NCBI RefSeq assembly: GCF_014192645.1
Contig: NZ_JACHYE010000001.1
Coordinates: 564,350 to 628,349, forward strand
Length of the DNA stretch: 64,000 nt
Direction: 5' to 3'
DNA from: Herbaspirillum sp. Sphag64
GTDB lineage: Bacteria > Pseudomonadota > Gammaproteobacteria > Burkholderiales > Burkholderiaceae_D
Of the stretch, positions 2,795-62,311 are shown piece by piece (position 1 is the first letter of the stretch; each line of letters starts with the position of its first letter). Both the position numbers and the translations under genes were made by a program. Below the pieces are notes generated by a model, which searched no databases, was not told where the DNA came from, and saw only the letters and a program-made list of their open reading frames with translations.

Positions 2795-3751
2795 TCAGCC
2801 CAGCCAGACCGCCACCGACAGCAACAACAACAAGAACATCCACAACAACAAGGCACGCCAGACCAGGCCAACTGCGCTTTGCAACGTCCGCGGCGTTGGT
2901 TGCTCACCAGGGAAAACATCGACCGACTCCATTGTGGAATCAACTGTGGCAGCATCGGAAGGCAAAATACCGGCTGCCGTTTCTGCCGGAGTACCAAAAC
3001 GCACTCCCATTGCCCCACCACCGGCCGACAAAATAATCCCAACTGCCTCGTCGACCCAGCGATTGGCAAAATTACGCCAGGCATAGATGGCATCTTCGAA
3101 ATTGCCAACCACGGCAAATGCTGAGGCAGTGAATCGCGCCGGTATCCAGTCTATCCAGTAAAACGCCTGCTGGGCAAACCGCCCAAAGACTTCCTGGCGC
3201 ATATGATCCGGTTCATTCCAGGCACGCGCTAGATATTCGGCAACCCGATACATCACGGCACAGGCTGGACCAACCGGCATCAAGAACCAGAAAAATACAC
3301 CGAAGACGTGGCGATGCGTAGTGACGAGTGCCTTTTCGGAGGCAATACGGGAAATTTCGCTGACATCCATATCGGAAGTATCTTGCTTGATCCATTCCGC
3401 CAGAAGCGCCCTGGCGGTAATCTCATCACCGCTGTTGAGTGCAAGCTGAATCGAGGTGAAGTAGTGACTGTAATGGCGAAAACCCAGCGTCAGATACACA
3501 ATCAGGATGTTCCATGCCAGCGCTGCCAGCGGACTTATACGCAGGCAAACCCAATAAATCAAGGCTGTTGGAATGGTCAGCGCCAGCACGGTCGCGATCC
3601 AGCCCAGACGGCCATGTTGCGGATGACCTGCATTGAACCAGGTTTCAACCCGGGCTGCGAAGGCCTTGATCCCACTGTAGATGGGATTGTCCGCCCGCAG
3701 CGGCTTCATTTGTTCGATCAGGAGCGCAAAGAGTATGGAGAGAAATGTCAT
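2795..3751 (-). CDS. CobD/CbiB-family membrane protein
   Basis: A 318-residue polytopic membrane protein resembling adenosylcobinamide-phosphate synthase (CobD/CbiB), which attaches the aminopropanol arm in cobalamin synthesis. Visible signs are the N-terminal MTFLSILFALLIEQ helix, the LGFRHYSHYF region, a conserved middle with GVFFWFLMPVGPACAVMYRV, and a last hydrophobic helix at about residues 293-316. Related copies with no other cob genes nearby are common in Burkholderiales and may do something else; no cobalamin gene is seen in this window. AAAGG precedes the ATG at 3751. Confidence 0.8.
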   Translation of the reverse strand: MTFLSILFALLIEQMKPLRADNPIYSGIKAFAARVETWFNAGHPQHGRLGWIATVLALTIPTALIYWVCLRISPLAALAWNILIVYLTLGFRHYSHYFTSIQLALNSGDEITARALLAEWIKQDTSDMDVSEISRIASEKALVTTHRHVFGVFFWFLMPVGPACAVMYRVAEYLARAWNEPDHMRQEVFGRFAQQAFYWIDWIPARFTASAFAVVGNFEDAIYAWRNFANRWVDEAVGIILSAGGGAMGVRFGTPAETAAGILPSDAATVDSTMESVDVFPGEQPTPRTLQSAVGLVWRALLLWMFLLLLLSVAVWLG

Positions 3752-49658: not shown

Positions 49659-52169
49659 TTAGCCTTCGCGCAAGGTTTGCAGCGGCGGCTGGGAAAGCAC
49701 CTTGCGCAAGCCTAACCAGCCACCGGCAAGTGTGCATCCCATACCTACCAAGGCGCCTGCCAGCCATAACCAGGCACTGACATGCCAATCAAAATCAAAG
49801 ATATTGCGGGCCAGCACCCAACCTGCCAGACCAGCACCACTGGCTGCCAGCAAACCCGCCAGACCGCCGACCAGCATCACTTCAATGCGCTGCGCTTGCG
49901 CCAGCTGACGGCGGGTGGCTCCCAATGCGCGCAACAGACCCGCTTCCCGGATTCGGATATCGTGCGTACCGACCAGCGCTGCGTATAACACTAAGGCACC
50001 CGCCAGCAGTGCAAACAGAAACAGGAACTGTACTGCCGCCACCACTTGATCAACGATGCTCTGAATCTGTTGCAGCACGCTGCCGATATCCACCACGGTC
50101 AGATTCGGAAAATCTCGGGTCAGCAGATTGGCCAGACTAGCTTGCTCAGGCGGTAAATGAAAAGCGGTGATCCAGGTCTGCGGCATGTCCTGGAGCGCAG
50201 TCGGATTGATAATCACAAAGAAGTTGACCCGCAGGGAGCCCCATTCCAGTTTGCGGATACTGGTGATTGGCACCGACAGCAACTGTCCTGCAATGTCGAA
50301 TTGCAGGTGATCCCCAAGCTGTAATCCCAAGGTCTTGGCCGCGCCCTCTTCCACCGACGCCTCTGGCCGCGTGTCGTCGAACCAATGGCCAGCGACGATT
50401 GTGTTTTGCGCCGGCAAGTCACGCATGGTGGACAGATTGAATTCGCGATCCACCAATCGTCGGGCACGATCGTCGTGGTAGCTGTCGTTGGTCACTGGCT
50501 TATCATTGATTTGCACCAGTCGACCACGGATCATTGGATACAACGGGGCCTGGGCAATGTTCGCCTGCTGCAGCCGCTGCGCAACCGCCTCCTTCTGGTC
50601 GGGCTGGATATTGATGACAAACCGGTTCGGAGCATCAAGCGGTGTCGACTGCCGCCACGCAGCGATCAGATCACCCCGGATCACTGTCAGCAGGAGCAGC
50701 GCCATCAAGCCCAAACTCAGCGCCACGATCTGCACAATGCTTGCCCCCGGACGTCGTTGCAGGCCCTGAATGGCAAAACGCCAGCCCTGATTACCAAACC
50801 AGCCACGCGCGCTGCCTAGTGCGCGCAGACAAACCCAGGCCAGCAAGGCAAACAGTCCGCAGGCCCCAAGGAAGCCCAGCGCCGTCAGTAGACCCAACTT
50901 GATGTCACCGGCCTGCCACAGCAACAAACCGATAAAGACCAGACTGCCCAGCACATAGGTGGCAATACTGCTGACCTTGGGTGCGGAGGCATCTCGCCGT
51001 AACACCCGGTTGTGGGGCACATTGCGTAGCTGCAGCAAAGGCGGTAAAGCAAACCCCACCAGCAGCAACACGCCCACCGCCAACCCTTGCACGGCGGGCC
51101 ACCAACTGGCTGGCGGCAAGGAAGTCGCTACCAGGCCGGCGAGCCAGCTCAGCAAGGCAAAATGCGCGACAAATCCCATTAGTACCCCAAGTGCACTACC
51201 GACCAGGCCAATGAGTAAAAACTCTTGCATATAGAGCCAGGTCACCTGCGTCTGGGTCATACCAAAGCAGCGCAGCATGGCACAGGCATCCAGATGTCGC
51301 AGCATGAAGCGACGCGCCGCCAATGCGACGGCAACGGCAGCCAGAAACGACGACAACAAACCAACCAGCGAGAGAAATTGCTGTGCGCGATCGAGTGTCG
51401 CGCGGATTTCCGGACGCCCTGAATCAATCGATTCGATCCGTACACCCTTGAGATTGTCGGTATCAATATGCGTTTGTAACCAGCGCTGATAAGACTTGAT
51501 ACGTTCCGTTGTACCGGCCAGCAACAGCCGATAGGTAAGTCGAGAGCCAAACTGCACCAGTCCCGTAGCAGTCAAATCGTCAAGCGCGAGCATGACACGG
51601 GGCGCAAAATTGACGAATGCACTGCCGCGATCCGGTTCATTGGCAATCAATCCTGCGATACGAAATTGTTGACTCCCGAGTTTGAGGTGATCACCGACAT
51701 GCAGCTGCAAAGCAACCAGAATGGCCTGATCAACCCAGACCGTGCCACGCTCAGGGATGCCAGATGCAGCATGCGGCTTGCCATCCTGCGTGTGATTGTC
51801 GGACGCCAGACTGAGTCGCCCGCGCAAAGGATAGTCAGACGATACCGCTTTGATGGACGACAATACGGAACGCACACCGTCGCCCTGCCCGGCAACCGCC
51901 ATGCTGGGGAACACGATGGTCTGGGCCGTCTGCAGATGTTCCAGCTGTGCCTGTTGCAGCCATTGCGGTAGCAAAGGCTGGTCCGTTGCCACCAGCAGAT
52001 CGGCTGCCAGCAATTGATGTGCATCGCGTTCAAGACCTGCACGCAGACGATCGATGAAGAAGCCAACCGAGGATAGCGCAGCAACAGCCACAATCAGGGC
52101 CACCAGCAAAAAGCGCAACTCACCGGCTCGCCAGTCGCGACGTGTCATGCGCAATGATTGTATAAACAT
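49659..52169 (-). CDS. FtsX-type ABC transporter permease
   Basis: 836 residues. An inner-membrane permease of the FtsX/MacB group in the YbbP-like form with two FtsX halves. The first helix follows RAGELRFLLVALIVAVAALSSVGFF, then a long periplasmic domain, three helices (about 265-400), a central pair, a second periplasmic domain and a final FtsX unit (FLFLFALLAGALVLYAALVGTHDIRIREAGLLRALGATRRQL). The two AxLRxxGxT-type coupling helices (MLRCFGMTQTQV and LLRALGATRRQL) would contact the ATPase. No ATP-binding partner gene is adjacent in this window. The ATG at 52169 has GGGA upstream. Confidence 0.9.
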   Translation of the reverse strand: MFIQSLRMTRRDWRAGELRFLLVALIVAVAALSSVGFFIDRLRAGLERDAHQLLAADLLVATDQPLLPQWLQQAQLEHLQTAQTIVFPSMAVAGQGDGVRSVLSSIKAVSSDYPLRGRLSLASDNHTQDGKPHAASGIPERGTVWVDQAILVALQLHVGDHLKLGSQQFRIAGLIANEPDRGSAFVNFAPRVMLALDDLTATGLVQFGSRLTYRLLLAGTTERIKSYQRWLQTHIDTDNLKGVRIESIDSGRPEIRATLDRAQQFLSLVGLLSSFLAAVAVALAARRFMLRHLDACAMLRCFGMTQTQVTWLYMQEFLLIGLVGSALGVLMGFVAHFALLSWLAGLVATSLPPASWWPAVQGLAVGVLLLVGFALPPLLQLRNVPHNRVLRRDASAPKVSSIATYVLGSLVFIGLLLWQAGDIKLGLLTALGFLGACGLFALLAWVCLRALGSARGWFGNQGWRFAIQGLQRRPGASIVQIVALSLGLMALLLLTVIRGDLIAAWRQSTPLDAPNRFVINIQPDQKEAVAQRLQQANIAQAPLYPMIRGRLVQINDKPVTNDSYHDDRARRLVDREFNLSTMRDLPAQNTIVAGHWFDDTRPEASVEEGAAKTLGLQLGDHLQFDIAGQLLSVPITSIRKLEWGSLRVNFFVIINPTALQDMPQTWITAFHLPPEQASLANLLTRDFPNLTVVDIGSVLQQIQSIVDQVVAAVQFLFLFALLAGALVLYAALVGTHDIRIREAGLLRALGATRRQLAQAQRIEVMLVGGLAGLLAASGAGLAGWVLARNIFDFDWHVSAWLWLAGALVGMGCTLAGGWLGLRKVLSQPPLQTLREG

Positions 52170-52281
52170 GCAGTGTCCCAGGTGGCAAATAAACTTCGCC
52201 GGCATGGTCGCGTACATAATGCGAGCGCGACCATGCCGGCGAGGAAGGTCATGACGACAGTGTATCTCTGTTACTTGGCGA

Positions 52282-53334
52282 TTATGCCGGCAACGAAGAC
52301 ATGTCGATCACAAACCGATATTTCACATCGCTTTTGAGCATGCGCTCATAGGCCTGATTGATCTCGTCAATCTTGATCAGTTCGATATCAGAGGTAATTC
52401 CATGCTCGGCACAGAAATCCAGCATTTCCTGGGTTTCCTTGATACCACCGATCAACGACCCCGCCAGCTTGCGTCGTTGCAAAATCAGATTGAATACGGT
52501 TGGTGAAGGATGTGGTGTATCAGGTGCTCCGACCAGGGTCATGGTGCCATCGCGCTTGAGCAGCGACAGGAACGCATCCAGATTATGCGGTGCAGCAACG
52601 GTGTTGAGGATGAAATCAAAACTATTGGCATGCTGCGCCATTTGCGCTTCATCCTTGGAAATCACCACTTCATCCGCACCCAGCTTCAGCGCATCAGCGA
52701 CCTTGCCCGGCGACGTCGTGAACAAGACCACGTAAGCACCCATCGCATGCGCCAGTTTGACGCCCATATGTCCCAGACCGCCGAGGCCGACGATACCGAC
52801 CTTATGCCCCTTGCCGACTTTCCAGTGACGCAATGGCGAATACGTGGTGATCCCTGCGCATAGCAGCGGCGCTGCTGCGGCTGGATCAAGTTTGTCGGAG
52901 ATGCGCAGTACAAATTTTTCATGCACCACGATATTGTTGGCATAGCCGCCATAGGTGACGCCGCCGGTTTGTTTTTCTGGCCCATTGTAGGTACCGACAA
53001 AACCATTTTCGCAATATTGCTCCAGACCTTCTGCGCAACTGGCACAGGTTTGACAGGAGTCGACCATGCAACCCACACCGACTAACTGACCGAGCTTGAA
53101 TTGCTGCACCTGGGAACCGACCTTGCTGACCCGGCCGACAATTTCGTGACCTGGTACCGTCGGGTAAATCGTATTGCCCCATTCATTGCGGGCGGTGTGC
53201 AAATCGGAGTGGCAAACACCGCAATACAGGATATCGATCTGCACATCGTGTGCACCTGGCTCACGTCGATCAAAACGATAGGGAGCCAATGGCGCCTTCG
53301 GGCTGACTGCTGCATAGCCATAGGAAGCTGACAT
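52282..53334 (-). CDS. Zinc-dependent alcohol dehydrogenase, YahK/cinnamyl type
   Basis: 350 residues. NAD(P)-linked reduction of aldehydes or oxidation of alcohols. Catalytic zinc ligands are in YCGVCHSDLH and PGHEIVGRV; the four structural-zinc Cys are in DSCQTCASCAEGLEQYC. The nucleotide-binding turn is VGIVGLGGLGHMGVKLAHAMGA. Length and layout match broad aldehyde reductases such as YahK. The frame stays open to 53796, but AAAGGA sits correctly before the ATG at 53334 and the extra frame is antisense to the LprI-like gene. Confidence 0.94.
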   Translation of the reverse strand: MSASYGYAAVSPKAPLAPYRFDRREPGAHDVQIDILYCGVCHSDLHTARNEWGNTIYPTVPGHEIVGRVSKVGSQVQQFKLGQLVGVGCMVDSCQTCASCAEGLEQYCENGFVGTYNGPEKQTGGVTYGGYANNIVVHEKFVLRISDKLDPAAAAPLLCAGITTYSPLRHWKVGKGHKVGIVGLGGLGHMGVKLAHAMGAYVVLFTTSPGKVADALKLGADEVVISKDEAQMAQHANSFDFILNTVAAPHNLDAFLSLLKRDGTMTLVGAPDTPHPSPTVFNLILQRRKLAGSLIGGIKETQEMLDFCAEHGITSDIELIKIDEINQAYERMLKSDVKYRFVIDMSSLPA

Positions 53335-53605
53335 AATTGATCCTTTCATGATCGGTAAAGTGGGATAGCGCTTGTTACCTGCTGCACAACCGCAAGATGC
53401 CGCTGTGCACAGAAAATCGTGAAAGCAATGCGGAGCACATGGTAATACTTCAGCAAACTCCTTGCAGAGCACTGCCCGATTTAGCATTACTCCCAATTGA
53501 AAAGCTGGGCAGTACAACAAATTGTTACCAATTTCCTGCTGCAAACCATTTGCAATCAGCAACGTACCGATGGAAACTGCTGACCAGAACATGTTGAGGA
53601 AATCT

Positions 53606-54058
53606 ATGAAATCATCTTTGCGCCGAATAGCTGCCTTGCTCGCCTTTTCAGTGTTGAGTGTGACTGCAGCAGGCAGCCATGCTGCCGATACTGGCAGTAC
53701 CGAAAAGAATGGCAACACAAACAACAGCGATGCCCTCAGTTGCAACAATGCGGGGACCCAGGCCCAGATGGAGCAATGTGCTGCACAGGCACTCAATCAG
53801 GCCGATACCGAGCTGAACCAGACCTATGTTGACTATCGCAACCGGCTCGATCAGCGACAGCAGGATCAAATCCGCGATGTGCAGCTGGCCTGGATAAAAT
53901 ATCGAGATCTATCGTGCAAATATGCCAGTAACGACGTCGGCGGCTCTGCCCACGCGCTCGCATTGCAAACCTGCCTGACCGAAAAAACACAAGAGCGGAC
54001 CCGCGAAATCAAGGCATTGGCGGCCTGTCCTGAAGGTGACCTGACCTGCCCCCGCTGA
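53606..54058 (+). CDS. LprI-like (DUF1311) exported protein
   Basis: 150 residues with a signal peptide (cleavage after SHAA, about residue 27). The mature part holds the DUF1311/LprI pattern: CNNAGTQAQMEQCAAQALNQADTELNQTYVDYRNRL, then QIRDVQLAWIKYRDLSCKY and a late Cys pair. Members include a mycobacterial lysozyme inhibitor, though most are uncharacterised. Start at 53606 because GAGGA lies seven bases before it; an ATG five codons earlier has none. A strong terminator follows. Confidence 0.85.
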   Translation: MKSSLRRIAALLAFSVLSVTAAGSHAADTGSTEKNGNTNNSDALSCNNAGTQAQMEQCAAQALNQADTELNQTYVDYRNRLDQRQQDQIRDVQLAWIKYRDLSCKYASNDVGGSAHALALQTCLTEKTQERTREIKALAACPEGDLTCPR

Positions 54059-54063
54059 ACCAT

Positions 54064-54107
54064 AAAAAAGAGCCAGTCTGCATGATCCTGCAGCTGGCTC
54101 ATTTTTT
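54064..54107. terminator. Terminator between LprI-like and LysE genes
   Basis: GAGCCAG (54070-54076) pairs with CTGGCTC (54094-54100) and CTGCA with TGCAG inside it after a one-base bulge. AAAAAA precedes it and TTTTTT follows, so it works for both convergent genes. Confidence 0.88.
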
Positions 54108-54154
54108 CTCATCACCGTGATCACCTTACCGATACGGCAAAGCTTATTTCAACC

Positions 54155-54790
54155 TCAGGCCTGGCTGCGCTTGAAAAAGAACAGCCCGGTTCCCACCAGC
54201 ATCAAAATGCCACCGAAGAAGCGATTCTGGATCTTCAAGGCACGCGCATCGCGGAAATAGCGCTGCATGCGACTGGCGGCAAATGCATAGCCATGCATCA
54301 CCACCAGATCAACCGACACCATGGTGACTGCCATGACTAGCAATTGCAGCCACAGCGGCTGTTGATGGTCGATGAATTGCGGCAATACAGCCACCATAAA
54401 GACGATCCCCTTGGGATTGGTGGCATTAGTCAGGAAACCGGTCAACACCCTTTGCCAGCGTGATGCAGTTGCAGCTGGACGAACCTGCTGCTGGGAGTCA
54501 ACGTGTACCGGAGCGCGCCATTGCGACCAGCCCAGGTAGATGAGATAAGCAGCGCCCAGAATCTTGATGGTATTGAAAGCTGCCTCCGAAGCAACCAGCA
54601 ATGAGCCAACGCCAGCGCCCGCAATCAGCAACACCAGTACCAGCGCAATTTCCAGACCGAGAATCGTCACCGAGGTACGACGCACACCGTAGCTCAGGCC
54701 GTGGCTCATCGACAGTACTGCGCCAGAACCTGGCGAAATCGCGATCAGACAGGCTGCAATAAAAAAGGCAAACCAAGTGTGCAAAGCCAT
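54155..54790 (-). CDS. LysE-family exporter
   Basis: 211 residues with six membrane helices. The family exports amino acids such as lysine, homoserine or threonine. Clear marks are the start WFAFFIAACLIAISPGSGAVLSMSHGLSYGVRRT, KILGAAYLIYLGW, and FLTNATNPKGIVFMVAVLPQF. The ATG at 54790 has AAAGGA upstream; the long frame before it has no start signal. The substrate cannot be read from sequence. Confidence 0.92.
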   Translation of the reverse strand: MALHTWFAFFIAACLIAISPGSGAVLSMSHGLSYGVRRTSVTILGLEIALVLVLLIAGAGVGSLLVASEAAFNTIKILGAAYLIYLGWSQWRAPVHVDSQQQVRPAATASRWQRVLTGFLTNATNPKGIVFMVAVLPQFIDHQQPLWLQLLVMAVTMVSVDLVVMHGYAFAASRMQRYFRDARALKIQNRFFGGILMLVGTGLFFFKRSQA

Positions 54791-55059
54791 ACCAATTTTC
54801 CTTTCCGCAAAAGTAAAACAAACATTATAGAGAGAAGCGCCACTGTGTGCGGTGGCGCGTCGCACGCAACTGCTTGAAGTGACATTCCACGCTATCCAGA
54901 GCAATTGCAACAGCCGCTTACAACTATCGCATGATTTGCAACACTTTGACGTCGTCGCTTTGATTGGCGGCTCGTTAATGGAAGTAAGGCGCAGCAATCA
55001 AGTGAAACAAACTGGATCAAGCGCCGAGACAGAAGAACTTCTCTTTAAGGAAAATTGCC

Positions 55060-55353
55060 ATGAAATCGACTTCCCTCATCGCTGCTGCACTGCTGTCCGC
55101 ACTGACTCTGCCAGTGTTCGCCCAAACCGGGGCACCAGTCGCCAAGCCAGCTGCCGTATCAGCCACTACATCAGCAGCAACGACTGCAGCAGCTCCGGCC
55201 AGCGTTGCGAAGAAGGCAGTACCGGCAACTAGGATCAAGTCGGTGAAGCACAGCGCCACAAGTCATTCCAGTGTGAAGAAACTCGACACCAAGGCCACCG
55301 CAAAGCCGGTTAGTTCGCCAGTCAGTGCCAGCACTAACGCCGTGATCAAGTAA
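55060..55353 (+). CDS. Asr-like small basic exported protein, copy 1
   Basis: 97 residues. A Sec signal peptide ends VFA-Q at residue 21/22. The mature part is almost all Ala, Thr, Ser, Pro, Val and Lys, with a cluster of Lys/His/Arg near the middle (TRIKSVKHSATSHSSVKKL). It has no Cys or Trp and no domain. Composition and layout recall the periplasmic acid-shock protein Asr of enterobacteria. The first of three tandem paralogues with nearly identical signal peptides (ALLSALTLPVFAQTGA). AAGGA before the ATG. Function not known; acid or ion stress is the working guess. Confidence 0.75.
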   Translation: MKSTSLIAAALLSALTLPVFAQTGAPVAKPAAVSATTSAATTAAAPASVAKKAVPATRIKSVKHSATSHSSVKKLDTKATAKPVSSPVSASTNAVIK

Positions 55354-55409
55354 TTTCAGACGAAATCAGTCACCAGCGCATACCACCGAAACCTTAAAGG
55401 AAAAACATC

Positions 55410-55670
55410 ATGAAAACATCTACCGTTATCGTCGCCGCCCTGCTCTCAGCACTGACCCTGCCAGTATTCGCACAAACTGGTGCGACAACAGCGAGCCCAA
55501 CGACACCGGCAACGACAGCAACAGCAACAGCCAAAACTGCGACTGCGCCAGCCGCAAAGACCTCCCACGAGGTAAAGCACAAAAAGGTGAAGACAGAAAA
55601 AACTGCAAAGGACACTGCGTCCAAGCCAGCGACCGCAGCACCTACAGGCACGCCAGCAGCAGCGAAATAA
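55410..55670 (+). CDS. Asr-like small basic exported protein, copy 2
   Basis: 86 residues; the same signal peptide (ALLSALTLPVFAQTGA, cleavage after residue 21), then an Ala/Thr/Pro linker and a Lys-rich block (HEVKHKKVKTEKTAKD) and an Ala/Pro end. AAAGGA stands before the ATG. It follows copy 1 after 56 bases. Amino-acid divergence is greatest in the mature part while the signal peptide and ribosome site are conserved, the mark of duplication with relaxed sequence constraint. Confidence 0.75.
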   Translation: MKTSTVIVAALLSALTLPVFAQTGATTASPTTPATTATATAKTATAPAAKTSHEVKHKKVKTEKTAKDTASKPATAAPTGTPAAAK

Positions 55671-55754
55671 GGCAACTCGCGTCACATTGACCACCAGACT
55701 CCGGCGCGGCGCGGCTGCGCCAGCAACAACACCATTGACACTAAAGGAACCATC

Positions 55755-56054
55755 ATGAAGACTTCTTCCCTGCTCGTCGCTACTCTGTTTTCCGCACTGA
55801 CTCTGCCAGTATTTGCCCAGACCGGCGCTGCTGCGCCAGCGACGACACCAGCTACAACCGCGACAGCGCCTGCTGCAAAGACGGCTGCGCCAAAAGCCGA
55901 ACAGGCGACCAAGCAAAAGACCGTAAAACACGCAGTCAAGAAGGACAAGACTGCAAAAAAAGAAGCAACCGAAAAGACGGACAAGAGCAAGGCTGACGCA
56001 ACCTCAACCAGCAAGCCAGCCGCTGGCGACAGCAAGAGCTCTGCCAGCAAGTAA
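55755..56054 (+). CDS. Asr-like small basic exported protein, copy 3
   Basis: 99 residues; signal peptide as in the other two (SALTLPVFAQTGA), then Ala/Thr/Pro repeats and the richest Lys region of the three (KQKTVKHAVKKDKTAKKEA...KTDKSKAD). AAAGGA before the ATG, 84 bases after copy 2. A perfect terminator follows at 56089-56126, so all three copies probably form one transcript. Basic, disordered and periplasmic by prediction. Confidence 0.75.
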   Translation: MKTSSLLVATLFSALTLPVFAQTGAAAPATTPATTATAPAAKTAAPKAEQATKQKTVKHAVKKDKTAKKEATEKTDKSKADATSTSKPAAGDSKSSASK

Positions 56055-56088
56055 GGTCGACAAGGCATCGTCGATATAAAAAGACGTT

Positions 56089-56126
56089 AAAAAGCGGTTT
56101 GTCAGGACACGGACAAACCGCTTTTT
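56089..56126. terminator. Terminator after the three-copy array, shared with tilS
   Basis: A perfect 15-bp stem AAAAAGCGGTTTGTC (56089-56103) with GACAAACCGCTTTTT (56112-56126) and an 8-base loop. A and T runs on the outer sides make it bidirectional; tilS ends 15 bases away on the other strand. Confidence 0.92.
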
Positions 56127-56140
56127 ACATCGATTTTTCT

Positions 56141-57574
56141 TTAGCCCAGATCAGCTTGCCAGCGCAAGACGATATGCTGTGTTGACGCGTCGACAGCTGC
56201 GCTTTGCGCATGGCAATCCATACCAATTCCGGCAGCGTAGAGCAACTGTTCACCGGCAAAGATGATCGGTAAATAGGGGCGCTCCCAGGCGGGAATATCG
56301 AGCGATTGATAATGGTATTTCAAACTCTTGGCCGGACGATTGGCTGCCAATTTGAGACGCTCGCCACCGCTGCGCAATGTCAACGTCAGGCGCTGTTCAC
56401 GCAGCCATTGCGGAGGCAATCCAAGCTCCGCTGTGTCAAACACTAAGCTGCCCGCAAAGCGCGGAAAATGCAGACTACGCTCGCCCTTCCAGATAAACGA
56501 CTGAGGTGCGGAATCAGCGTCAAACGCAGGGTGCCGTGGCGTCAGAAATACCCGCTCACGATAACGCCGGATATGACAGTCAGGATGGGTCACGCACAAT
56601 TGTGCATCTTCCTTGGCTTCCAGCAGTTGGGTACGTAATTCAGCCAGCCAGGCAGCGGATGGCATACGCAGGCCGCGTAAGGCAAACCAGTATCGCAACA
56701 GATTATCGAGCCGGTCCTGATCAAGACGACGCAATGCCGGCAAGCTCAAATATTCGCCATCCAGACATCCCGCCAGATCCTGCGCGGCCAGACCGGTGAG
56801 CAAACGCTGCGCGGCCTGGGCATGACTGGCAGCACGTGCAAAACGCTGTTGAAATCCGGGGAAGAACTCGCTCAGCGCCGGCATCACATGGCGCCGCAAA
56901 GCGTTGCGCGCATAACGGGTGTCGTGGTTGGACTCGTCTTCCACGAAGCGGATTTCACAGTCACGCGCATGCGCTTCCAACGCCGTACGCGAAACATCGA
57001 GCAGAGGTCGCGCCAGTAACAGATTGGCATTATCCAGCAGGCTCGCTGCCGCATTGGCGCTATCCATTCCCGACATCCCAGCCACACCGGAGCCGCGCAG
57101 TAATTGCAGCAACACCGTCTCCGCCTGATCGTCCAGATGATGCGCGGTCAGCAGCAAGCGTACATCGTGCTGCTGACACAGTTGCCCGAGTGCACGGTAA
57201 CGTCCGATACGGGCCGCTTCCTCCACGCCACTTTTGTTGCTGGAATCAAGCGCGATATTGCATGTGTCGAATACCACTTCAAGCTGCGCGCACTGATCGC
57301 GACAATGCGCTTGCCATTGATCGGCATTGGCACTCAAACCATGGTGAATGTGGAAGGCCAACAAGGCGACACCATGGTCGCGGGCAAACTGATGCGCAAG
57401 GTGCAGCAGCACTGCCGAATCGAGACCGCCGCTGTAGGCAATCGCTATCCGCGGAAAGCGTGCTGCGAAATCAACGCCTGTAGTTGCATCAAAATCTGCC
57501 TGCAATGGCTTCAAAGCCTGCAATACCTGGCTTAATTGTGCTGGAAGAGAGTCGGAAGGCTTGGACGAGGACAT
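56141..57574 (-). CDS. tilS: tRNA(Ile)-lysidine synthase
   Basis: 477 residues. It attaches lysine to C34 of the tRNA that reads AUA. The ATP-pyrophosphatase loop is SGGLDSAV in RIAIAYSGGLDSAVLLHL, followed by FHIHHGLSANADQW, LLTAHHLDDQAETVLLQLLRGSGVAGMSGM and the C-terminal TilS domains (SGGERLKLAANRPAKSLKYHYQSLDIPAWER). ATG 57574 has GGGA upstream; the frame continues 25 codons further without signal. It lies downstream of accA on the same strand, 120 bases apart. Confidence 0.95.
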   Translation of the reverse strand: MSSSKPSDSLPAQLSQVLQALKPLQADFDATTGVDFAARFPRIAIAYSGGLDSAVLLHLAHQFARDHGVALLAFHIHHGLSANADQWQAHCRDQCAQLEVVFDTCNIALDSSNKSGVEEAARIGRYRALGQLCQQHDVRLLLTAHHLDDQAETVLLQLLRGSGVAGMSGMDSANAAASLLDNANLLLARPLLDVSRTALEAHARDCEIRFVEDESNHDTRYARNALRRHVMPALSEFFPGFQQRFARAASHAQAAQRLLTGLAAQDLAGCLDGEYLSLPALRRLDQDRLDNLLRYWFALRGLRMPSAAWLAELRTQLLEAKEDAQLCVTHPDCHIRRYRERVFLTPRHPAFDADSAPQSFIWKGERSLHFPRFAGSLVFDTAELGLPPQWLREQRLTLTLRSGGERLKLAANRPAKSLKYHYQSLDIPAWERPYLPIIFAGEQLLYAAGIGMDCHAQSAAVDASTQHIVLRWQADLG

Positions 57575-57694
57575 GCTTGTTTCCCAGCAGGCGAACGCTG
57601 ACTGGTCAGTTCTACCTGCAGCTGAATATGACAACGGCGCCGTCGTCACTTGCGTTATCGAACGGCGCCGCCAATGCTTGTTGCAAGCGAGGGT

Positions 57695-58675
57695 TTACTC
57701 TTGCGGACTGATTTCCTTGAACTTGCCGTAGCTCATCAACTTCTCGTGACGTGCGGCCAGCAGATCCTTGGTCTTCACACCCTGGAACTGACGCAACGTA
57801 TCGGCCAGCGCGCGCTTGAGCAATGATGCCATTTGCTTCGGATCACGATGCGCGCCACCGAGTGGTTCGCTGACGATTTTGTCGATCAAGCCCATGGCCT
57901 TGAGACGATGTGCCGTCAAGCCGAGCGCTTCAGCCGCATCGGAAGCACGATCTGCAGTCTTCCACAGAATCGATGCGCAGCCCTCTGGCGAAATCACGGA
58001 ATAAGTCGCATATTGCAACATCAGCACCGAATCACCGACGGCAATCGCCAGCGCGCCGCCGGAGCCACCTTCACCGATGATGGTAGCGATCAGAGGCACT
58101 TTCAGTTCGGCCATCACATACAGGTTGTGACCAATGGCTTCGGACTGGCCGCGCTCTTCCGCATCAATCCCTGGGAATGCACCCGGTGTATCGACGAAAG
58201 TGAAGATTGGCAGATTGAATTTTTCTGCAACCTTCATCAGGCGCATCGCCTTGCGATAGCCTTCTGGCTTTGGCATACCAAAGTTGCGCATGGCACGCTC
58301 CTTGGTGTCACGGCCCTTTTGATGACCGATGACCATGCAGGCCTGGCCATTGAAACGTGCCAGACCGCCGACGATCGACAGATCATCTGCGTAGGTGCGG
58401 TCACCATGCAGCTCATGGAAGTCAGTGAAGATTTCATTGACATAGTCCATCGTGTAAGGACGCTGCGGATGACGGGCGATCTGTGAGACTTGCCACGGCG
58501 TCAGCTTGGCGTAGATATCCTTGGTCAGCTGCTGGCTTTTCTTTACCAGGCGCTCGATCTCTTCCGAGATGTCGACGGCCGAATCGTCTTGCACAAAGCG
58601 CAACTCTTCGATTTTGGCGTCGAGCTCGGCGATGGCCTGCTCAAAACCCAGAAATGTAGTTGTCGACTTGCTCAT
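57695..58675 (-). CDS. accA: Acetyl-CoA carboxylase carboxyltransferase, alpha subunit
   Basis: 326 residues, normal length. With AccD it transfers carboxyl from biotin to acetyl-CoA, the first step of fatty-acid synthesis. Typical parts are [71 protein letters not shown] and [47 protein letters not shown] before the ATG. It belongs to the cysS-alkA-accA-tilS run, an order common in beta-proteobacteria. Confidence 0.97.
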
Positions 58676-58766
58676 CGTATTCCTTTTCTAGAACTCATTT
58701 TCATACACAGGCGGCAGTATAACAGCCCCGTGTGCCCGCGCTAAGCCTGTCGCCTGATAACCGATA

Positions 58767-59408
58767 TCAAGACTGGGCATCCAGACTACGCCACAAATAC
58801 CAGGTGGCAACAGTACGCCACGGCTCCCAATTGGCGGCGACTTCACGCACGTCGCTGCGCGATACCGGCTCGCCTGAAAAATAGCTGTTACTGATGCCCT
58901 CGAGTAATCCCGGATCATCCAGTGGCAGGATATTGGGTCGGAGCAGATTAAATATCAAAAACATCTCCGCTGTCCAGCGACCGATTCCGCGGATCTGCAA
59001 CATCTCGGCAATGACGTCTTCGTCGTTCATTTCCGCCCATTTATCGGGATGTACCGTCTTTGCCTTGAAATGTTTGGCCAGATCCAGCAAATATTCCGCC
59101 TTACGCTTGGACAAGCCACATGCGCTCAGCTGCTCTGGTCCCACCTTGAGCACTTGAGCAGGCGTGCACTTGGTACAGACTTCAAGGAAGCGTTGCCATT
59201 GCGCCTGCGCCGACTTCACCGAAATTTGCTGACCAATGATCGAGCGTGCCAGGGTCGTGAAAGCGTCACCGCGACCGGTCAATTGCAGATCACCGAATTG
59301 AGGAATCAGCTTGCGCATGATGCGATCACGTTTCATCAGCTCGACTTTGGCCTGTTCCCAGTAAGCAGGTACGCTGATGGGCGTCTCAGCTTGAGTATCT
59401 TTGATCAT
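58767..59408 (-). CDS. DNA-3-methyladenine glycosylase II-like protein
   Basis: 213 residues. An HhH-GPD base-excision glycosylase in the AlkA branch, removing alkylated purines. The helix-hairpin-helix is LQIRGIGRWTAEMFLIF and the catalytic Asp follows in ILPLDDPGL. SIIGQQISVKSAQAQW marks the helical core. It lacks the N-terminal beta domain of E. coli AlkA, as usual in short forms. Two starts are possible: ATG 59429 would overlap cysS by 16 bases but has no ribosome site; ATG 59408 has GAGG nine bases upstream and is chosen. Confidence 0.9.
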   Translation of the reverse strand: MIKDTQAETPISVPAYWEQAKVELMKRDRIMRKLIPQFGDLQLTGRGDAFTTLARSIIGQQISVKSAQAQWQRFLEVCTKCTPAQVLKVGPEQLSACGLSKRKAEYLLDLAKHFKAKTVHPDKWAEMNDEDVIAEMLQIRGIGRWTAEMFLIFNLLRPNILPLDDPGLLEGISNSYFSGEPVSRSDVREVAANWEPWRTVATWYLWRSLDAQS

Positions 59409-59413
59409 GCCTG

Positions 59414-60814
59414 TCAGCCTCGCCGCCATTCGGTCAAGCCACCGGGTTTATCTTCAAGAATCACGCCAGCAGCAGCAAGTTGCGCACGAATTTGATCCGC
59501 TTCTGCAAAATTTCTTGCCTGTTTAGCCGCCACACGTGCCGCAATGCGGGCTGTGATTTCCGCCTCATCCAGAACCTGCTCACCAGCACCAACTGCCGTC
59601 TTGAGGAAGCTCTCTGCTGGCCGTTCCAACAGACCCAGCACCGCGCCCAACGCCTTCAGCTGGCGTGCCTGCTGCGGCGACTTGCTCTTGTTGAGTTCAT
59701 TGGCCAGATCAAACAATACCGACAAGGCAACTGGCGTATTGAAGTCATCATTCATTGCCTCAACAAACCGCTGCGCATGTACTTCGTCCTGATCTACGAC
59801 AAACTCGGTTTCATCAAGCACCACATCCTTGAGCGCCGTGTACAGACGGGTCAGCGCCTGACGTGCATCATCGAGGTGGGCATCAGAGTAATTGAGCGGG
59901 CTGCGATAGTGAGCGCGCAGGATGAAAAAACGCACCACTTCCGCATCGTATTTTTTCAGGACATCACGAATGGTGAAAAAATTACCGAGCGACTTCGACA
60001 TCTTTTCATTGTCGACACGCACAAAGCCATTGTGCATCCAGTAATTCACGAAGCCATGCTGATGCGCTCCCTCTGACTGCGCGATCTCGTTTTCGTGGTG
60101 CGGAAACTGCAGGTCTTGACCACCGCCGTGAATGTCGAAATGTTCGCCCAGCAAGTCACAGGACATCGCCGAGCATTCGATATGCCAGCCCGGGCGTCCC
60201 TTGCCCCAGGGAGAATCCCATTTGACTTCGGCAGGCTCGGTTTCCTTGGCCGCCTTCCACAAAACAAAGTCCAGCGGATCACGCTTGCCGGTGTTGACAT
60301 CAACACGCTCTCCGGCACGCAAGTCGTCGAGTGTTTTACCCGACAACTTGCCGTAACCGGCAAAATCCCGGACCGAATAATTCACGTCACCATCGCTGCC
60401 CTGATAGGCCAGACCGTTGTGCTGCAACTTCTGAATCAGATTCAGCATCTGCGGCACGTAGGCAGTCGCACGCGGTTCATGATCAGGACGTTGCACGCCA
60501 AGCGCTGCCGCATCTTCGTTCATGGCATCGATAAAGCGCTGTGTGAGCTGACCGATGGTTTCCCCGTTCTCCAGTGCGCGACGAATGATTTTGTCATCGA
60601 TATCGGTGATATTACGGACATAAGTCACGTCCAGTCCGCTGGCACGCAGCCAGCGTTGCACCATGTCGAATACCACCATCACGCGGGCGTGGCCCAGATG
60701 GCAATAGTCATAAACGGTCATGCCGCATACGTAGAGACGGACCTTGCCTGCCTCGATAGGGGTAAAGGTCTGCTTATCACGCGCCAGCGTGTTGTAGATT
60801 TTGAGATTGCTCAT
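59414..60814 (-). CDS. cysS: Cysteinyl-tRNA synthetase
   Basis: 466 residues, class Ia synthetase charging tRNA-Cys. The HIGH-type motif is [13 protein letters not shown], the KMSKS loop is [13 protein letters not shown], and the zinc ligands include [18 protein letters not shown] and HHENE. The C-terminal anticodon part contains [15 protein letters not shown] and [23 protein letters not shown]. First gene of the run toward alkA, accA and tilS; the promoter should be in the 246 bases shared with the divergent TPR gene. Confidence 0.97.
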
Positions 60815-61060
60815 GGACGGGAAATTGGTTCAGGCAAAAATTGGGTGAATTGTTCGAGTTGTTTCAACGGTGAATACGCGATATCGGCCAGCCTGCACAG
60901 TGATCAGACACCGTTGCGAATAAACGCTTCACGGTGCGCAGAGCCAATGTTCAGCCGACTTTTTCTCTAGCGACGACAACATGAATACAACACGATTGCC
61001 AAAACCCTTTTTATAGTGCTTTTTTGATAAAATGCGTCTTTTCGTTCGAGTATAGCATTG

Positions 61061-62311
61061 ATGAAAACCATGCCTCTTGCCTCTCCGCACACTTATCGCA
61101 ATGCTTTGCGTGGCATTTTAGGCAAGACCGTTATTCTAGCTGGCTTGATCGCAGCAATCTACCCGGCACAAGCCAGCGAGATGTCTGAAATCAACAAGCT
61201 GATGCGTAATGGACAATATGCAGACGCCTTGGTGAAGACCGATGCCGTACTGGCAAAACATCCGCGCGACGCCCAACTGCGTTTCTACAAGGGGCTGATC
61301 CTGGCAGAGCAGAACAAGTCTGCGGAAGCGATTGCCGTGTTCAGCAAATTGACTGAAGACTTCCCTGATCTGCCCGAACCGTATAACAACCTGGCGGTGC
61401 TGTATGCAGCCAATGGTCAATATGACAAGGCACGTGCTGCCCTGGATATGGCCATGCGCACCAATCCAACCTATGCCACGGCGCTGGAAAACCTGGGCGA
61501 TGTCTATGCCAAGCTGGCCAGCCAGGCGTACGACAAGGCGCTGCAGATTGATCCCGCCAACAACGTACCCGCACCCAAGCTGACGCTGGTGCGCACACTC
61601 AATGGCAATTTGACGGGTGGCACCATTCCGAAACTGGCGAGCGCCAACACCAGCGTCAAGGCAACATCTGCCCCAGCCGATACGCCAGTCACGCCGACGA
61701 CTCCCCCTGCCCCACCTGTGATCGCACAGCCTGAGGCAAAACCGGAGCCGAAGGTCGATGCCAGGACGGCTGAAAAGGCTGCACAAGCGGCCGCGCAACT
61801 GGCTGCAAAGCAAGCTGCTGACAAGGCAGCAGAAAAAGCGGCTCAGCTCGCTGCGGAAAAGCAGGCCAAGGCTGACAAGGCTGCTGAAAAAGCTGCCCGT
61901 GCTGCAGAGAAGGAAGCCAAAGACGCCAAACTGGCCGCTGAAAAGCAAGCCGACAGTGCACGTACAGACAAGGACAAGACTGCCGTACTTAATACTGTCT
62001 ACAGCTGGGCCAAGGCATGGAGCGACATGGATGTCAAAAATTACCTGGCATCCTATGGCAACGACTTCACCCCTCCCAAGGGACAAACCCGCAAGCAATG
62101 GTCTGACGAACGTCGCGATCGCATCGAGGAAAAAGGCCACATCAACGTCAAGGTGGAATCACCTCAGGTCACGTTCAAGAACGACACCGCGACTGTACGC
62201 TTCCGTCAGATATATAATTCGAACCGCCTGACGGTTGACAGTCGCAAGACACTCATCCTGACCAAACAAGGCAATAAATGGTTGATCAAACAGGAGCGCT
62301 CGGGAGGGTAA
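61061..62311 (+). CDS. TPR protein with C-terminal Cds6-type domain
   Basis: 416 residues. A signal peptide or anchor at about residues 20-39 (TVILAGLIAAIYPAQA) leads to three to four TPR units (about 42-175). Next is a long Lys/Ala coiled coil (EKAAQAAAQLAAKQAADKAA..., about 225-300), then a small NTF2-like end domain (VYSWAKAWSDMDVKNYLASYGNDFTPPKGQTRKQWSDER...KWLIKQERS). The last domain recurs in the next gene, the L,D-transpeptidase. Envelope role expected. The stop overlaps the next start (TAATG). ATG 61061 is used; 61070 is an alternative. Confidence 0.85.
   Translation: MKTMPLASPHTYRNALRGILGKTVILAGLIAAIYPAQASEMSEINKLMRNGQYADALVKTDAVLAKHPRDAQLRFYKGLILAEQNKSAEAIAVFSKLTEDFPDLPEPYNNLAVLYAANGQYDKARAALDMAMRTNPTYATALENLGDVYAKLASQAYDKALQIDPANNVPAPKLTLVRTLNGNLTGGTIPKLASANTSVKATSAPADTPVTPTTPPAPPVIAQPEAKPEPKVDARTAEKAAQAAAQLAAKQAADKAAEKAAQLAAEKQAKADKAAEKAARAAEKEAKDAKLAAEKQADSARTDKDKTAVLNTVYSWAKAWSDMDVKNYLASYGNDFTPPKGQTRKQWSDERRDRIEEKGHINVKVESPQVTFKNDTATVRFRQIYNSNRLTVDSRKTLILTKQGNKWLIKQERSGG

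Follow-up and report, generated by a model that had tools for sequence, protein, structure and literature searches.

What do three short tandem genes, each apparently encoding a small, basic and secreted protein, do for a Herbaspirillum cell, and do they belong to a family that is already described? The genes lie on the forward strand at 55060..55353 (copy 1, 97 aa), 55410..55670 (copy 2, 86 aa) and 55755..56054 (copy 3, 99 aa) of the window, by which we mean the whole stretch of 64,000 nucleotides analysed, taken from an assembly of 4.58 Mb. All three begin with ATG, and their products are secretion-type proteins rich in Ala, Thr and Lys. Upstream, on the reverse strand and divergent from the array, lies the gene of a LysE-type (homoserine-efflux) exporter (54155 to ~54793); downstream, also on the reverse strand and convergent with the array, is tilS (56141 to ~57571). 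A first-pass annotation of this DNA had reported three tandem genes with exactly these coordinates, which we confirm, and its description of them as secretion-type, basic, low-complexity paralogues of a multi-copy family is supported. It had also labelled them Asr-like and explained them as a local expansion, and these two claims fare less well.

The copies resemble each other most in their signal peptides, which were read by eye from the sequence and are closely similar; an unbroken SALTLPVFAQTGA around the signal-peptide end is common to all three, and cleavage of copy 1 would fall between VFA and QTG. The ribosome sites are also similar but not "almost identical", as had been stated: they read TTTAAGGAAAATTGCC-ATG, TTAAAGGAAAAACATC-ATG and CTAAAGGAACCATC-ATG, with AAGGAAAA at 55047..55054 (forward strand) serving copy 1. 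The mature parts are Ala/Thr/Lys-rich and divergent, in agreement with the annotation, and their alignment is loose. Invariant columns make up 34 of the 104 in the three-copy alignment, and copies 2 and 3 are 48% and 50% identical to copy 1, respectively. Copy 1 is the most divergent, with an end branch of 0.97 in a gene tree of low resolution, with 25 of its 59 inner branches open.

A search for homologues and copy number across the Oxalobacteraceae recovers a genus-wide array of one to three copies, and not single-copy orthologues only. Array matches occur in 30 of the 34 Herbaspirillum genomes, beside tilS and/or the LysE-type gene, and the gene neighbourhood is constant across the loci read. 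Complete arrays stand between the LysE-type gene and tilS in 28 genomes, and in genome G032 three copies adjoin tilS; in G008 a contig end truncates the array next to the LysE-type gene, and this array is outside the 29 complete ones. Among these 29, six have one copy, 13 have two and 10 have three, where the homologue pattern requires a motif of the P-x-F-A/G-Q type, so that strongly changed copies would escape it. Three of the four genomes in which no array was found (G018, G029 and G030) have tilS with a PsiF-like gene in its neighbourhood; the fourth, G022, is 63% complete, and no tilS was recovered from it.

Outside the genus, the surroundings of tilS in 22 genomes from other Oxalobacteraceae showed no array, under a filter on composition by which divergent genes might go unnoticed. 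A family-wide search matched 26 of 195 genomes, 14 of them outside Herbaspirillum. None of these 14 loci has tilS or a LysE-type gene as a neighbour, and 11 encode other small proteins of the secretion type that are rich in Ala/Lys(/His). In a named collection, 25 loci were returned, of which 21 have the array (that of H. lusitanum is cut by a contig end) and the remaining four are either unrelated or similar in no more than part of the signal peptide. Twenty of the 21 are titled Herbaspirillum; one metagenome-assembled genome (MAG; L067) is titled Duganella sp., which is probably a misnaming. Small secreted Ala/Lys-rich proteins are thus common in the family, and this array is, as far as sampled, a feature of Herbaspirillum. 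The annotation knew of no described family of this kind, and we likewise found no published description of it in open-licence papers (without supplements).

Long antisense ORFs run across the same stretch as the three genes, as might be expected if the genes were low-complexity reading frames that arose by chance in GC-rich DNA. Such an explanation is scarcely credible given the matches found in 30 of the 34 genomes of the genus, the ribosome sites, promoter-like block and terminal hairpin at the loci read, and nonsynonymous differences (pN) that are well below synonymous ones (pS). The latter rates were compared between signal and mature parts, as the annotation had proposed, in 17 copies over eight pairs of close species. 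The signal part has pN 0.007 and pS 0.072 (pN/pS ~0.10), and the mature part pN 0.043 and pS 0.261 (pN/pS ~0.16); in the same pairs, tilS has pS 0.333 and pN 0.069, and the LysE-type gene pS 0.299 and pN 0.040. By this measure, both parts of the protein are under purifying selection.

The window paralogues have diverged much further. In the signal part their pS is 0.49 and pN 0.077, such that about half of the synonymous sites differ, and in the mature part pS is 0.718 and pN 0.392. Because the copies have diverged at synonymous sites, they are not recent, and this divergence, together with the genus-wide distribution, rules out a local expansion in this strain. We also considered recent gene conversion as a source of the signal identity, but the paralogue signal pS (0.288 over 43 pairs, and 0.49 in the window) does not favour it. 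The low synonymous rate of the signal-coding DNA among close species is here treated as largely a 5'-end effect, since the 5' part of psiF also has a low pS, although less strongly so (0.127 vs 0.289 for the remainder of psiF, with six of eight pairs usable). The LysE-type gene, whose product presumably lacks a cleaved signal peptide, shows no such drop (0.300 vs 0.296, six of eight pairs); lprI was left out of this comparison, as two of its eight pairs were usable.

We determined the composition of the mature proteins in 62 homologues from 29 genomes. Ala (34.9%), Lys (20.1%), Thr (13.4%) and Pro (8.1%) dominate; Arg is rare (3 residues, compared with 858 Lys), Cys, Phe, Trp and Tyr are absent, and Ile, Leu, Met and Val account for 81 of 4261 residues. 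AQTG is present at the signal/cleavage region of 57 of the 62 proteins, and FAQ in all 62, but the search pattern all but demands FAQ, which therefore counts as no evidence. Could these be structural or antimicrobial cationic peptides that are released outside the cell, e.g., for competition or for binding to plant surfaces? They are secretion-type, cationic and multi-copy, and Herbaspirillum species are often plant-associated. However, the lack of aromatic residues and the scarcity of hydrophobic ones argue against a membrane-active amphipathic design, and none of the neighbouring genes identified (tilS and the LysE-type exporter, LprI-type and PsiF-repeat genes) is known to export peptides or confer immunity. 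We regard released peptides as quite improbable.

A different possibility is that the signal alone is constrained and that the mature tail is a near-neutral, low-complexity passenger. The mature parts do vary in length (56-91 residues) and are hard to align, while the signal is far better conserved. On the other hand, the mature pN/pS ratio is low and the mature pS is near those of tilS and the LysE-type gene; moreover, the C-terminal residue is Lys in 62 of 62 homologues, and the net charge of the mature part is held at +6 to +10 despite 9-25 basic and 1-17 acidic residues. These observations make a mere passenger unlikely.

The constancy of the net charge is a lead, and not proof, that charge itself matters. 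Its standard deviation is 0.99, as against a mean of 4.37 when acidic residues are shuffled among the proteins (r 0.95), in statistics where relatedness is not handled by a full tree method; charge constancy is also present in 31 disjoint nearest pairs and in 43 paralogue pairs. The argument is weakened because a control set of 33 PsiF-like proteins shows the same effect, if less strongly (1.26 vs 2.31 shuffled, r 0.75). An AlphaFold2 model of copy 3, built from a 15-sequence alignment, has a helix at residues 4-15 only, a mean pLDDT of 54.6 and no residue at pLDDT >=70, which is in line with predicted disorder of the mature proteins.

We now turn to the DNA around the array. A conserved element, CTTACAA-N13-TG(A/C)AACA, lies upstream at 54917..54943 on the forward strand and was recognized by cross-genome conservation; its two boxes are ~20 bp apart. 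Allowing up to two mismatches, it is found in 29 of the 34 genus genomes, i.e., in 29 of the 30 with the array and none of the four without; the one miss, G020, has a one-base gap. G032 retains the element, although a LysE-type orthologue was looked for in that genome and not found. A longer form of the element matches 25 of 294 family genomes, all 25 Herbaspirillum, versus two matches of a reversed control pattern. The element is followed on the same strand by GTCGTC at the -35 position (54951..54956; GTCAGC in G032), a poor match to TTGACA, and by GTTAAT, a -10-like box (54974..54979; GTTAWW in relatives). The spacer between these two boxes measures 17 bp in each of the 29 genomes compared (30 rows, since one genome occurs twice), under a search pattern that permitted a range of spacings. 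The distance from the -10-like box to the ATG is 60-93 nt across the genus. A sigma-70 scan of 54700-56300 returned no sites. Because of the box spacing and the poor -35 box, we infer that the upstream block may be a promoter with an activator site, perhaps for a regulator of the OmpR/PhoB type.

If there is such a regulator, it may have other targets. Separate searches gave extra near-matches of the element in 3 of 34 genomes (one each), in 3 of 4 and in 3 of 3. Three near-matches recur in two relatives each (G006/G019, G031/G033 and G016/G019) and are mostly intergenic; these recurring near-matches could be additional targets of that regulator, which would then control a small regulon. At the corresponding loci (L232/L236, L240/L241 and L183), the near-matches recur at the same sequence in pairs of related genomes. 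A regulon search found no second element site common to several clades.

Between the -10-like box and the first gene, the 5' leader (54988..55025, forward strand) contains complementary GGCGC (54988-54992) and GCGCC (55021-55025) and could form a 5' stem-loop; for 19 of 29 leaders, the minimum-energy fold includes at least three of the four GGCG/CGCC pairs. No match to Rfam was obtained at gathering thresholds for 50000-62000.

At the other end, an intrinsic-terminator-like hairpin of 16 pairs (56088..56127, forward strand) closes the array and separates it from tilS; it is readable from both strands and so also faces the convergent tilS. A terminator scan of the region returned five sites where 3.5 were expected, of which this hairpin is the longest. 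Across genomes, 28 of 29 arrays have a terminator-like hairpin 3' of the last copy, and none of 33 internal gaps contains one, with the qualification that 130 bases were scanned after the last copy, while the internal gaps measure 56-137 bp, are often shorter and thus offer less room. With one promoter-like region, no internal terminator and one terminator at the end, all recognized by sequence only, the array looks like a single transcription unit.

The neighbourhood also contains psiF in some genomes. At 54058-54155 of the window, an LprI-type gene directly adjoins the LysE-type gene; the psiF that intervenes in G012 (L221) is absent there, and psiF seems to have been lost or moved in the window genome. 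PsiF-repeat proteins (PF07769) resemble the array proteins in being small, secretion-type and basic, and in sharing their neighbourhood in several genomes, but their repeat contains Cys and their sequence is unrelated. In G012, which we take to be H. seropedicae, two 54-nt stretches 111 bp apart (L221, from base 3212) are identical at 53 of 54 positions; they lie inside the gene at L221:3206-3505, which has two PsiF repeats. The psiF/rhtB neighbourhood of H. seropedicae is touched on in PMC6337395, which reports a 164-nt CRISPR (54-nt repeats, 57-nt spacer) by rhtB and psiF of strain SmR1. Because 54 + 57 = 111, the reported CRISPR is, judging by these repeats, probably the internal 111-bp repeat of psiF and not a CRISPR.

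Asr proteins are small and consist of a signal peptide followed by a basic mature part of low complexity. The array proteins share this size and layout, with the signal in the window copies being read from sequence, so it is natural to ask whether they are true Asr orthologues, i.e., proteins of the periplasm that are induced by acid and controlled by a regulator of the RstA type. PMC11135836 describes Asr as supporting the growth of E. coli in acid, with RstA as an activator of asr. The Asr model (acid resistance repetitive basic protein, NF033636; cut-off 50 bits) gives sub-threshold matches (E up to 0.01) in 17 of the 34 genus genomes, some of them on the array, and weak matches in 4 of the 14 array-family members scanned (best E 0.018). 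However, none of the 34 genomes exceeds the cut-off, which rejects membership in Asr and with it the label given by the annotation. The best weak score is 25.3 bits anywhere in the genus and 24.8 on an array; in the window, copy 3 reaches 14.0 bits, and copies 1 and 2 are not among the matches. The same search does detect Asr in its E. coli control (two of 14 control genomes gave matches, E. coli and Deinobacterium chartae, one of them above the cut-off), and the weak matches in Herbaspirillum also fall on a His/Lys-rich gene and other loci. In addition, the array has one to three copies and another upstream element: its boxes, TTACA and GAAACA, are 20 bp apart, in contrast to the tandem TACA of the RstA box described in PMC4117788, although that source also states that the classic box is missing from K. 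pneumoniae asr, so that the box is not a strict requirement. True orthology to Asr is accordingly improbable.

No Pfam-A or NCBIfam model scores above its curated cut-off for the window copies, and 14 array-family members gave only weak Pfam matches (best E 0.01). The best NCBIfam match among these members is TIGR04420 (E 9.6e-5; 7 of 14 members), whose cut-off is 90 bits; window copies 2 and 3 reach 15.7 and 18.1. Solved structures yielded four weak matches (best E 0.23).

The His/Lys-rich gene encodes a small secretion-type protein with a His/Lys tail at L121:2720-2935 (G000 C12, the genome of the window copies), adjoining a glycerophosphodiester phosphodiesterase gene, and it also occurs at L035, L122, L125, L126 and L127; similar proteins exist in other Oxalobacteraceae. 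It resembles the array proteins in size, layout and signal (MKLNKLLAAVLVAAFAMPVLAQ), with an Ala/Pro-rich linker followed by a basic cluster, and differs in its His/Lys tail with 0-3 acidic residues (seven sequences) and in its gene neighbourhood. Six aligned loci have another conserved upstream motif, TGTCAACGC...GCGTT. Another Lys/Ala-rich protein of the secretion type, 168-183 aa long and with the core KYTDD.IVRDLKAGKLTVREAQILQ, adjoins the His/Lys protein (L122:2337-2864, L125:2022-2528 and L127:1139-1690). The His/Lys-rich protein of G000 scores 25.1 bits (E 2.5e-5; cut-off 50) against the Asr model and is, by model score, a nearer Asr candidate than the window copies. Because this score exceeds the 14.0 bits of the window copies, an Asr-like role may belong to the His/Lys-rich protein instead, which lowers our confidence in what follows.

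Our preferred but tentative reading, with a probability of about 0.42, is that the array is a Herbaspirillum operon of one to three copies encoding a secreted, disordered polycation that acts on the cell envelope through its charge, in an Asr-like mode. An activator, perhaps an OmpR/PhoB-type response regulator, would bind the TTACA/GAAACA boxes and drive the promoter with its poor -35 box. All copies would be made from one transcript, and the proteins would be exported by Sec into the periplasm or envelope. There they would bind, by charge, to anionic polymers such as LPS, peptidoglycan, polyphosphate or exopolysaccharide or, alternatively, to unfolded proteins under envelope stress. Their mode of action would then resemble that of enterobacterial Asr, although they are not Asr themselves, and the dose of polycation would depend on copy number. 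A more specific proposal, which we consider rather unlikely, is a dosage-tuned operon with a dedicated activator-dependent promoter, in which the selected property is net charge (~+8 per molecule), and not sequence or length, and in which copy number shifts by recombination between conserved signal-peptide segments.

It is important to emphasize that the anatomy of the array is far surer than the action of its proteins. Small disordered secreted proteins often stay "hypothetical" because profile models cannot hold them. Gene order, the promoter-like block, the terminal hairpin and charge are testable marks despite the low complexity of the proteins. If the charge-held reading is true, the 62 proteins would form a compact natural series with which to test function against net charge alone.
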